Assembly: GCF_900313065.1 (NCBI RefSeq)
Contig: NZ_OMPU01000006.1
Location: 30,006 to 94,005, forward strand
DNA: 64,000 nt
Direction of reading: 5' to 3'
Origin: Kiloniella sp. EL199
Lineage (GTDB): Bacteria; Pseudomonadota; Alphaproteobacteria; Kiloniellales; Kiloniellaceae
Positions 45,601 through 53,695 of this stretch are shown piece after piece (within the stretch, counting starts at the first letter, position 1; each line of letters begins with the position of its first letter). Both the position numbers and the translations under genes were made by a program. The notes beneath the pieces are model-generated. The model saw only the letters and a program-made list of their open reading frames with translations, made no database searches and had not been told where the DNA came from.

Positions 45601-45768
45601 TTATAAAGTGTCTATACGTGAACTACTGTTTTTCGAATATTTCTTCAGAAATTCCTTGGCTCTTTCGCGGTTTTGATATTGAAAAAGCGCTTCAGCTGGG
45701 GCTTCTACTACAACTTGGCCATTAGCCATAAAAATAACGTGGTTTGCAATGTCACGGGCAAAGATCAT
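45601..45768 (-). pseudogene. C-terminal relic of an amino-acid ABC transporter ATPase
   Basis: A 55-codon minus-strand frame reads MIFARDIANHVIFMANGQVV, then VEAPAEALFQYQNRERAKEF and LKKYSK with a short tail. It aligns closely with the last 45 residues of the intact ATPase at 48890-49663 ([29 protein letters not shown] and FLKK). The Walker A, signature and Walker B regions are gone. It is a truncated gene copy, probably left by a duplication or rearrangement of the transporter locus. The remaining 45769-45933 holds nothing recognised. Confidence 0.8.
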
Positions 45769-45933
45769 TTAAGGCATAATGATGATTGTTTCGCTTATTT
45801 ATCCTTATCAGTGTTTTACTTATGGGGCAGTAATTTCAGTGGAAATCTAAATAAAGTTTATCTCTAACTCGCTTTTCTCAATTATAATTTAATAGTTTTA
45901 ACTCATGGTTGAGACATTGTTTCGTGGCGGAGA

Positions 45934-46863
45934 TTGAATTTGATAAATTTATGGATGCAAACTTATTGCCGTTTTACTTTCGTTTTACTGGCAATGTTTT
46001 TTGGTCTCACCCATACGGTGCAAAGTGATACCCTTACGATTGGAACGATTAGTTCAGAACCTGTTGGTGATATTAAAACTTTCGCACCCTTTGCAAATTT
46101 CCTTGCCGAGAAACTGATCGATGATGGTGTTGACGAAGTCCAAGTCGTAATTGCGCCTGATATTAAACAAATGGTTGGGATGTTGAAGCAGCAGGAAATA
46201 GATCTTTTTATTGATAGTTCGATAACAGCTTCGATTATCAACAAATTGTCTGGATCCCAATTCATGCTTCGACGTTGGAAGAAAGGGCGGGCTAAATATC
46301 GAAGTGTAATTTTCGTTGCAGAAAGTAGCGATATTCAACAGATCAGTGACTTGCGCGGGAAGATTATCGCTTTTGAAGAACCCTTTTCTACATCTGGTTA
46401 CGTTCTTCCGGCTCTGGCAATATTACAATCTCAAAATCAACTTCATCAGTTGGAACGCCTGAGCTCTTTTCCTGTCGCTGAAGAGATAGGGTTTATCATG
46501 GCTTATGATAGTGAAACTCAAATGGTGTGGCTTGAACGTGATCTGGTTGCTGCGGCAGCAATGTCAGAGGATGATTATCTGGAATACGTTCAGAGCGTAT
46601 TGATACCCATGAGGGTTTTACATACAACGGCTTATGTGCCTTATCATGTTGTCGTTCATCGTTCTGGACTTGAAGAGAATTTAATTAAGCGTATCAGGCA
46701 AGTGTTGAAGACTGCTCATGAAGATAAGGAAGGTGCTGAAGTTCTAAATCGTTTTGAGAGAACCACAAAGTTTGATGAAATTCCGGATGATTTACTACAG
46801 GAGATTAAAAGACTGGAACCTTTTTTAGGGGATGTGTCCATTAATCAAAGTGCTGGGCAATAG
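45934..46863 (+). CDS. PhnD/SsuA-like periplasmic substrate-binding protein
   Basis: The 309-residue product has a signal peptide (about residues 13-31) and then the PhnD-type fold: LTIGTISSEPVGDIKTFAPFANFLAEKL, IAPDIKQMVGMLKQQEIDLFIDSS, ISDLRGKIIAFEEPFSTSGYVLPALAIL. There is no permease or ATPase beside it. A sensor kinase follows 9 bp later, so it probably presents a ligand to that kinase rather than serving transport. Start choice is uncertain: TTG at 45934, TTG at 45940 (better spaced from GGAG) or ATG at 45955. Confidence 0.83.
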   Translation: MNLINLWMQTYCRFTFVLLAMFFGLTHTVQSDTLTIGTISSEPVGDIKTFAPFANFLAEKLIDDGVDEVQVVIAPDIKQMVGMLKQQEIDLFIDSSITASIINKLSGSQFMLRRWKKGRAKYRSVIFVAESSDIQQISDLRGKIIAFEEPFSTSGYVLPALAILQSQNQLHQLERLSSFPVAEEIGFIMAYDSETQMVWLERDLVAAAAMSEDDYLEYVQSVLIPMRVLHTTAYVPYHVVVHRSGLEENLIKRIRQVLKTAHEDKEGAEVLNRFERTTKFDEIPDDLLQEIKRLEPFLGDVSINQSAGQ

Positions 46864-51202: not shown

Positions 51203-51355
51203 AATACTTCACTTTTTATTAGCTAAACAAGATTTGATTACCGCTGATATGTACTAATTGAATATCGCTTTCAAGTTATTTAACAATTCAATATGTGAAT
51301 ACCAGGTATTCACATATAATTTGTGTGTAAATTAATTTGATCTTTTGAATAGAAT

Positions 51356-53695
51356 TTGTTTACCTTTAATCGTGTAGGATTGTTGCTGCTATTCATGGTT
51401 GTGAGTTTGTGCGTGAACATTGGACGGTATAGAACATTATTAATAGTCCTGTTTATCGGGGGTGGATTGTCATTTACTTCTGCTTTTATGGTGTTTCAAA
51501 ATTATAGAGAGCATGAACAACAGGAATTACAGGCGAATACAACAGTACTAAAAGACGCGATTTCTGCCTCTGTTCTTGAGAATTATAACAAGCTTGTCGG
51601 CCTCAAGGCTTATTTTGATACTGCGGATAATGTAACCCGTGATAACTTTACGCACTTCACTGATGTGTTGTTACAAGATGCAAAGGGCATACAGGCGCTG
51701 GAATGGATACCAAGGATACTGCACAATCAGCGAAGAGGGGCCGAAGATGTCGTAAGGTTTTACGGATTTTCTGACTTTGAATTCCGACAGTTTGATCGTG
51801 ACGGACACATTATTCGTGCTAAAGACCGCAAGGAATACTATCCGGTTTATTTCGTTGAGCCTTTTCCAGAAAATCAGCAAGCCTTTGGGCTGGATCTTGC
51901 TTCTGAAACAACAAGAAGACGCGGACTTTTCCTTGCAAGAGATACGGGCAAGACAGTTACGGTCGGGCCTATTAAGTTAGCTCAGGGCGCTGACGGTGTT
52001 CTTGTGATGTTACCTGTTTATGAATCTGATATTCCTCATACAACATTACTGGGACGCCATAAAGCTCTGCGTGGCTTTATTCTGGGGGTTTTCCGTTTAG
52101 ATCATATTATTGGTTCCGTTCTCGCTATGCATCCACTTGGTGCAAGTACGGGGCTGGAAATCATTGATGTAAGTGTACCGGGAAGTGAAAAGAAATTATT
52201 CTCAAATAATTTTTTAAATTCTACCGATATAGCAACATCATTTTATGAAACTGATTTAAAGCCAAGGTATGAAATCCCACTGCCATTTCAAACAAGCAAG
52301 TGGTCCCTGAGCGTGCAAAAACGTACATCTATGTTTATGCCGGGTTATTTAAGCGTCTGGTACGTGCTTGTTACTGGTTTGGTCATGACAGTTATGTTAA
52401 TGGCCATGGTTCAGGCTTTGGTTAATCGAGAAGCATTTGCCGCTGAACAGGTGCGAATAAAAACAGCACTTTTATCCGAAAAAGAAAAACAGGCTCAAAT
52501 CATAGCCCGAAAAGCAGAAGTGGCGAGTGAGGCCAAGACAAATTTTTTAGCAACAATGAGTCATGAGATTCGAACTCCTTTGAATGGAATTCTGGGGATG
52601 GCACAGCTTTTAAATGATACTACCCTGAGCAAAGATCAAAACAAGAAAGTTGCCGGGATACTTTCTTCCGGTTCATCCTTGCTGGACATCGTCAATAATG
52701 TTCTTGATATGAGCAAGATTGAAGCAGGTAGCATGGAATTGGAAATGGCGATATTTGACCTTGCAGAAACTATATCTGCCACAGTATTGCCTTTTAATTC
52801 AGATGCCAAAGAAACTGGTGTGACCTTTTCACTTGATATGAAAATCGATGACGTGTTTTGGGTTGCTGGTGATCGAACACGCTTACAGCAGGTTGTACTC
52901 AACTTGCTGAGCAATGCCTTTAAATTTACATCCGAAGGAGAGATTTCTTTGAGTGTGAACGAACTTCAAGGTAGTGCGAGTAATTTTATCCATGGGGCTG
53001 ATTGCGTAATTGCGTTGAGTGTTAAAGATTCAGGAAAAGGTATATCGTCCGAAAAGCTGGAAACAATTTTTGATCCCTTTACTCAGGAAGATACATCCAT
53101 CACTCGGAAGTTTGGCGGGTCAGGTTTGGGGTTGTCTATTGTAAAGCAACTCATTGAGTTAATGGGCGGTTCCATTATCATCACCAGTGAAGAAGGCGTG
53201 GGGACACATTGTCATCTCGTTATTCCTTTTGTTTTGCCTGATGCTGATGAAATTGCAGTCAAGGAAGGAAAGAATGATCAGGGCAAGGAGAATGCTTCGG
53301 ACAATGTCATTGAGATTCAAAGAAAAAAGTTACAGATTCTATTGGCAGAAGACAACATGATGAATGCGGTTATTGCTAAAGCTTTCTTGAATAAATTCGG
53401 GCATGATGTGGTCCACGTTGAAAACGGACAGCTTGCTGTTGATGCTGTTACACAGCAGAACTTTGATGTTGTCTTGATGGATGTTCACATGCCCGAGATG
53501 AACGGTATGGAAGCTTCTAATATTATCAGGAAGACGAATAACTCCAAAGATTTACCAATCATTGGTTTGACGGCCGAAGCTTTCGAAGAAAGACATAAAG
53601 AGTTTAGGGCTGCCGGTATGAATTGTGTGATCACCAAACCCTTTACAGAAGAACAATTGGACACAACGCTTCAAAAATATGGCAATCCGTCCTGA
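51356..53695 (+). CDS. CHASE-domain hybrid sensor histidine kinase
   Basis: The 779-residue product has a membrane helix (about residues 25-47), a CHASE periplasmic domain ([50 protein letters not shown]) and a second helix ([20 protein letters not shown]). The DHp box ([21 protein letters not shown]), the ATPase ([43 protein letters not shown]) and a receiver ([17 protein letters not shown], Asp in [15 protein letters not shown]) follow. Its cytoplasmic half is strikingly similar to the broken kinase at 46873-48815. The start is uncertain; TTG at 51356 or an internal ATG/GTG before the first helix. Confidence 0.9.
   Translation: [779 protein letters not shown]

Follow-up and report, generated by a model that had tools for sequence, protein, structure and literature searches.

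A PhnD-like protein and hybrid kinase pair beside the cystine transporter operon of Kiloniella: a case for insertion with junction duplication

Results

A probable kinase cassette at the border of a cystine transporter operon

In the genome of Kiloniella sp. EL199 (4.18 Mb, 19 contigs), we analysed a stretch of 64,000 nucleotides, hereafter the window, in which an operon for an L-cystine ABC transporter is flanked by two plus-strand hybrid histidine kinases, K1 and K2, the former preceded by a gene for a PhnD-like periplasmic binding protein. The original prediction, made from the letters of this DNA, had read the locus as a segmental duplication of a transporter-kinase unit. On balance, we favour a history in which a PhnD-K1 cassette was inserted and its target junction duplicated, with K2 gained separately. 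Specifically, a two-gene PhnD-K1 cassette would have entered the junction of a GNAT acetyltransferase gene with the 3′ end of the cystine ATPase gene, and the insertion would have duplicated this junction, leaving the GNAT gene and a relic of the ATPase 3′ end on the left and a scrap of the GNAT 3′ end and the intact ATPase gene on the right. K2, which pairs a sister core with a CHASE sensor, would have been acquired independently on the far side of the operon. One insertion and a separate gain of K2 together explain the relic, the GNAT scrap and the distribution of these elements among related genomes.

A GNAT-ATPase junction, probably on either side of PhnD-K1

The left border is formed by the 3′ end of the GNAT gene (44965-45594, plus strand; PF13302, E 1e-29), followed by the relic, a decayed 3′ end of the cystine transporter ATPase gene (45601-45786, minus strand). 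A minus-strand ATPase relic of 55 codons before a plus-strand kinase is thus present as originally described (open reading frame 45601-45768). Its homology to the intact cystine ATPase extends over 45640-45786 (61% amino acid identity over 49 residues), and at the DNA level 45623-45770 matches 48890-49038 at 73% over 149 bp. A search of 12 ATPase loci in the same genome confirmed that the relic is not closer to a different transporter (67% amino acid identity to the cystine ATPase, 46% to the best other). The relic also occurs in the congener Kiloniella spongiae MEBiC09566 (G003), where it has decayed along a different path. Because the DNA that follows the ATPase stop in the K. spongiae relic matches, over 50 aligned bases, the DNA downstream of the ATPase gene in another congener, G007, at 43 positions, as opposed to 23 for that of its own intact ATPase gene, the relic occupies the ancestral GNAT-ATPase junction. 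In the genome under study, the DNA downstream of the relic is too decayed to place (at most 52% identity to any candidate). A single clade unites the relics with five intact ATPases (support 88/89, unstarred; 150 columns), and on the same columns a placement of the relics outside the five-species ATPases plus that of G008 was rejected (approximately unbiased (AU) test, p 0.006).

On the right, reading the DNA by eye between the stop of K1 and the stop of the intact ATPase gene gave YLILTDQYKVL here and YLILSCEYKVL in K. spongiae; the GNAT C-terminus of this genome is YAILASEYKAL. When this scrap was compared with the GNAT C-termini of seven genomes, its best ungapped BLOSUM score was reached by none of 1000 dinucleotide shuffles here and by 1 of 1000 in K. 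spongiae, two tests that are not independent because the spacers of the two genomes are homologous. Based on the by-eye reading and the shuffles, 48832-48864 (plus strand) is a probable remnant of the GNAT 3′ end. If so, the junction of the GNAT 3′ end with the ATPase 3′ end lies on both sides of PhnD-K1. A local duplication, as originally suggested, is likely, but the part seen to be repeated is this junction around PhnD-K1, the scrap having been overlooked in the earlier reading.

K1 and K2 share a kinase core and differ in their sensors

Of the near-identical stretches that the two kinases had been said to share, similarity holds for the half with the DHp, ATPase and receiver parts (two DNA blocks of 72% and 66%; 50-57% amino acid identity), whereas the sensor halves have no similarity (best E 8.8). 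Among 54 kinase cores, one of the quoted shared stretches, of 10 letters, was generic and occurred exactly in 31, while for the other two the best matches were K2 and K. spongiae K1. In a DNA alignment of 45601-48815 with 48890-53695, the relic and the two kinase blocks aligned, the rest had E of at least 0.045, and no trace of a permease or substrate-binding protein (SBP) gene was found in 45601-48815.

In our samples the two kinases are each other's closest relatives, as had been proposed, with K. spongiae K1 and K2 as sisters (100/98). This relationship was recovered, on long branches, in both trees of the DHp-ATPase-receiver core (41 and 42 rows; the second left out 12 rows of the first and added 13 others) and also in the DHp-ATPase trees; the receiver tree was poorly resolved. 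For the DHp-ATPase part, trees in which K1 and K2 are not sisters were 5.2 log units worse, a marginal rejection (AU p 0.056). The other 8 genus genomes searched held no orthologue of K2, and its sensor half had no match above 38% identity in them and none in K. spongiae.

The cassette and K2 have a narrow distribution in the genus

The serine acetyltransferase gene (cysE) and the GNAT gene lie near the cystine transporter, and 9 genus genomes were searched with cysE. Syntenic stretches from seven congeners were read; in G005, which is 77% complete, the search found no more than a weaker cysE match. All seven congener stretches (eight loci with this one) contain the ATPase, permease and SBP genes. 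The relic and PhnD-K1 were found in two of the eight loci, those of this genome and K. spongiae, and K2 in one. Five of the six congeners that do not carry the cassette have a plain GNAT-ATPase junction; in G001 no GNAT open reading frame was seen beside the cystine ATPase gene. At the junctions of these six loci there was no match to PhnD, K1 or the K2 sensor (tblastn, E up to 10), the only significant matches in the six being other kinases at the far ends of two stretches (L089 and L090). Nothing similar to the K2 sensor was found in the gap between the SBP and LysR genes of K. spongiae. K. spongiae has the relic and K1 in the same position as here, but K2 was not found there.

The kinase pair looks older than the relic

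The distance between K1 and K2 is 1.06. Seven kinase pairs that span the G008 split and are presumed to be orthologous gave 0.57-0.87, two such pairs with G001 gave 1.16-1.20, and three between this genome and K. spongiae gave 0.10, 0.10 and 0.41. Judged by these branch lengths, which give a rough clock, the K1-K2 split looks older than the relic. Because the relic falls within the five-species clade and the K1-K2 distance is larger, we suggest that the relic and the kinase pair probably stem from separate events and not from one duplication. The K1 proteins of this genome and K. spongiae are 0.21 apart in the DHp-ATPase tree, about twice the distance of two of the three between-species pairs, and this softens the gap between the two ages but does not remove it.

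K1 looks like a chimera

In agreement with the original prediction, the first kinase is accompanied by a PhnD-like protein (45934-46863, plus strand; PF12974, E 1.8e-39), the predicted input partner of K1. Its gene directly precedes K1 on the same strand, an arrangement repeated in K. spongiae. The protein fails the PhnD equivalog TIGR03431 (82.2 bits, cut-off 261.1), and the closest chain by sequence in the PDB is 5ub3, a phosphate-binding protein (E 7e-26). Among 61 genomes of the order, 2 had an orthologue (E up to 1e-12). In a sample of the phylum, 25 of 398 genomes, this one included, had a match (E up to 1e-15), the strongest matches outside its own genome being 33-37% identical among the others. 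A contig scan with two PhnD peptide patterns, in which records near this genome may be missing, returned one locus, that of K. spongiae. Of 29 loci with a PhnD homologue and 1.5-kb flanks, 20 had a K1-like sensor next to it, as did all 11 longer stretches picked from the better matches (10 of the 29 loci and one plasmid). Judged from these neighbourhoods, the K1 sensor and its PhnD-like partner belong to a widespread PhnD-kinase module.

The K1 core has other affinities. Forcing it together with the cores of four PhnD-partner kinases gave a tree 70 log units worse, which was rejected (p 0.0009); in this tree 7 further rows were dropped, and cores were obtained from 9 of the 11 stretches, all except L187 and L188. 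By its position in the trees, in which the rows have long branches that call for caution, the K1 core is of a kind found in Kiloniella and other Alphaproteobacteria. Because its sensor resembles those of PhnD-partner kinases while its core stands apart from theirs, K1 looks chimeric, with a sensor of the PhnD-partner type on a local kinase core. A structure predicted for the sensor region of K1 from two sequences had a mean pLDDT of 45.7.

Plasmid homologues of the PhnD-like protein (82 records) and of the K2 sensor (42 records) were all below 60% identity, and no donor plasmid can therefore be named. The GC content per kb of the cassette (0.39-0.42) is similar to that of its flanks, so composition says nothing about its origin; that of the cystine operon is higher (0.46-0.47). 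Separately, we observed a PhnD-like gene and a short kinase gene that adjoin repC and repB on a Leisingera plasmid (L183, 2798-7628; a Roseobacter plasmid).

K1 is interrupted by a frameshift

Of the two plus-strand hybrid kinase genes originally described, K2 is confirmed, but K1 is split by a one-base frameshift near 48290 that had been missed. Its first part (46873-48354, plus strand) comprises the sensor region, HAMP, HisKA and a truncated HATPase_c domain; its second part (48294-48815, plus strand, other frame) encodes the end of the ATPase domain and the receiver. In K. spongiae, K1 is an unbroken frame of 647 amino acids. The ratios of nonsynonymous to synonymous substitution rates (dN/dS) between the two species are 0.13 for PhnD, 0.12 for the first part of K1 and 0.18 for the second, and these low values indicate that the frame break is either recent or an assembly error. 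In this genome K1 is probably inactivated by the frameshift, and K2 is the kinase that remains. A sequencing or assembly error that conceals an intact K1, which would be compatible with any model of origin, is possible if less plausible: the ratios on either side of the break give no signal of decay and K1 is unbroken in K. spongiae, but the site lies outside any homopolymer run. A programmed frameshift was also considered, and inspection by eye found no slippery motif.

The cystine operon and neighbouring features

On passing all three NCBIfam equivalog cut-offs, 48890-51202 is identified as encoding an L-cystine ABC transporter, consisting of an intact ATPase of the TcyN type (48890-49663; NF008428, 414 bits, cut-off 406), a permease (49665-50330; NF011680, 343.9 bits, cut-off 300) and an SBP (50396-51202; NF008426, 357.5 bits, cut-off 312). 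All three genes lie on the minus strand and are followed by K2 (51356-53695, plus strand) with CHASE, HisKA, HATPase and receiver domains, the order given in the original prediction. The 3′ part of the ATPase gene (48890-49123) is 96-99% identical to that of G004, as compared with 89% for the whole gene and 84-87% for the permease, SBP and cysE genes. From these identities, the 3′ part of the intact ATPase gene is a recombinant, G004-like allele.

A palindrome (51291-51317), perfect over 27 bp, has its centre ~100 bp upstream of the start of the SBP gene and is a possible operator of the cystine operon. Its 19-bp core was seen in five of the eight loci: in K. spongiae and G007 compensating changes preserve the palindrome, and in G004 and G006 it has one mismatch; the core was not seen in G008, G001 and G002. 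At up to 3 mismatches it is the sole site in the genome.

Elsewhere in the neighbourhood, G007 (L086, 6728-8972) and G004 (L088, 5625-7885) have two genes between cysE and the GNAT gene that are absent from this genome: one for a protein of 414-454 amino acids, which in G007 is an MFS transporter, and a divergent LysR-like gene. An Rfam scan of 43000-57000 gave no match at gathering thresholds and ARAGORN found no tRNA in the 64-kb window, and an island at a tRNA site was accordingly dropped as a candidate. Among the literature matches listed (title and start of abstract), none was about this locus.

Discussion

Origin of the arrangement

A single-crossover (Campbell-type) integration of DNA that carried the cassette and ~200 bp of junction would be a route to the arrangement that we favour; a literature search on single-crossover insertion gave no matches. 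Several points weigh against this reading. The analysis turned up no donor molecule, no integrase and no closer relative of PhnD-K1, and two sister-core kinases that flank one operon are better explained by local duplication. The arguments from dates use a rough clock, the five close species form a polytomy, a placement of the relics just outside the five ATPases was not firmly rejected (p 0.056), and gene conversion is one way in which an older relic could come to look young. The GNAT scrap spans just 11 codons, and when tested at the DNA level against single GNAT ends it gave uneven results (reached by between 1 and 804 of 2000 shuffles in 12 comparisons).

The history implied by the original prediction, which we regard as rather unlikely, is a tandem duplication of a unit of GNAT 3′ end, ATPase, permease, SBP and ancestral kinase, after which the first copy lost the permease, the SBP and most of the ATPase gene and took a PhnD-type sensor, and K. 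spongiae later lost K2. The order and orientation of relic, K1, ATPase, permease, SBP and K2 fit such a duplication, the GNAT scrap just after K1 lies where the joint of a tandem repeat would be expected, and the sister cores (100/98) would come from the same single event as the relic, the scrap and the gene order. However, duplication of the whole unit is disfavoured by dates and distribution: 45601-48815 holds no trace of a permease or SBP, the K2 sensor has at most 38% identity elsewhere in the genus and no counterpart in the SBP-LysR gap of K. spongiae, and by branch lengths the relic looks younger than the K1-K2 split. The model could be rescued by gene conversion or by fast evolution after the sensor swap. 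It needs several losses, the swap itself and unequal rates or gene conversion. Alternatively, the cassette and its flanking repeat would be ancestral to the five-species clade and have been lost scarlessly in G004, G006 and G007 through recombination between the repeats. The polytomy of the five species and the between-species recombination visible in the ATPase gene leave room for this, and recombination between direct repeats would restore a single junction, but three losses are needed and there is no positive trace of them, and we consider it very unlikely.

Signalling and significance

We suggest that the ligand-loaded PhnD-like protein would contact the periplasmic part of K1, from which the signal would pass via HAMP to the kinase core, on to the receiver of K1 itself and then to an HPt protein whose gene lies elsewhere. 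HPt had 8 matches elsewhere in the genome, some within larger proteins, and no stand-alone response regulator was found among the neighbouring open reading frames scanned with Pfam (part of those in the window). By analogy with AioX/AioS and with PhnD-like sensor kinases, the PhnD-like protein is likely to present K1 with an oxyanion-like ligand. That either kinase controls the cystine operon is only a guess from their position.

We entertain, as an improbable reading, that the cystine locus is an exchange site for sensor kinases of one output subfamily, in which the PhnD-fed K1 is being retired here and a CHASE kinase with a sister core stands on the other side of the operon. One output would then be rewired to a new input, and the direct repeats would let the first cassette leave without a scar. 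More generally, the locus joins one type of kinase core to different sensors beside a nutrient transporter and shows by example how the genomes of congeners can help to separate duplication of a whole locus from insertion of a cassette with junction duplication. It is important to note that PhnD-kinase pairs, duplication of kinases, shuffling of input domains and pseudogenes are already known singly; the locus is a case of ordinary two-component system evolution and bacterial gene shuffling, and it refines expectations rather than changing them.

Comparison with known systems

The L-cystine ABC transporter matches the known system of TcyN ATPase, permease and cystine-binding protein by all three equivalog cut-offs, whereas its mosaic ATPase gene and the kinases on either side set this locus apart. 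Among characterized kinases, LuxQ and TorS are the best NCBIfam matches of the catalytic halves, but not the sensors, of K. spongiae K1 and K2, with scores well below the cut-offs (LuxQ, NF041947: 392.9 bits for K. spongiae K1 and 372.7 bits for K2, cut-off 1200; TorS, TIGR02956: 364 and 349.5 bits, cut-off 676.5). LuxQ and TorS each have a periplasmic binding protein as partner, LuxP and TorT, respectively. Closer in arrangement are the AioX/AioS, ArxX and ArrX systems of oxyanion sensing, in which a PhnD-like periplasmic protein is likewise encoded beside a membrane histidine kinase and thought to be the ligand-sensing partner of that adjacent kinase (PMC5908839). In contrast to the AioX/AioS type, no response-regulator gene is directly adjacent here and K1 is a hybrid kinase; in a PDB search with the PhnD-like protein, ArrX was a weak match (E 2.9e-4) and AioX gave none at E up to 0.001. 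In PhnD-like sensor kinases (PMC5408782), a PhnD-like domain likewise feeds a histidine kinase, but there the PhnD-like part lies within the kinase, whereas in Kiloniella it is encoded by a separate gene.

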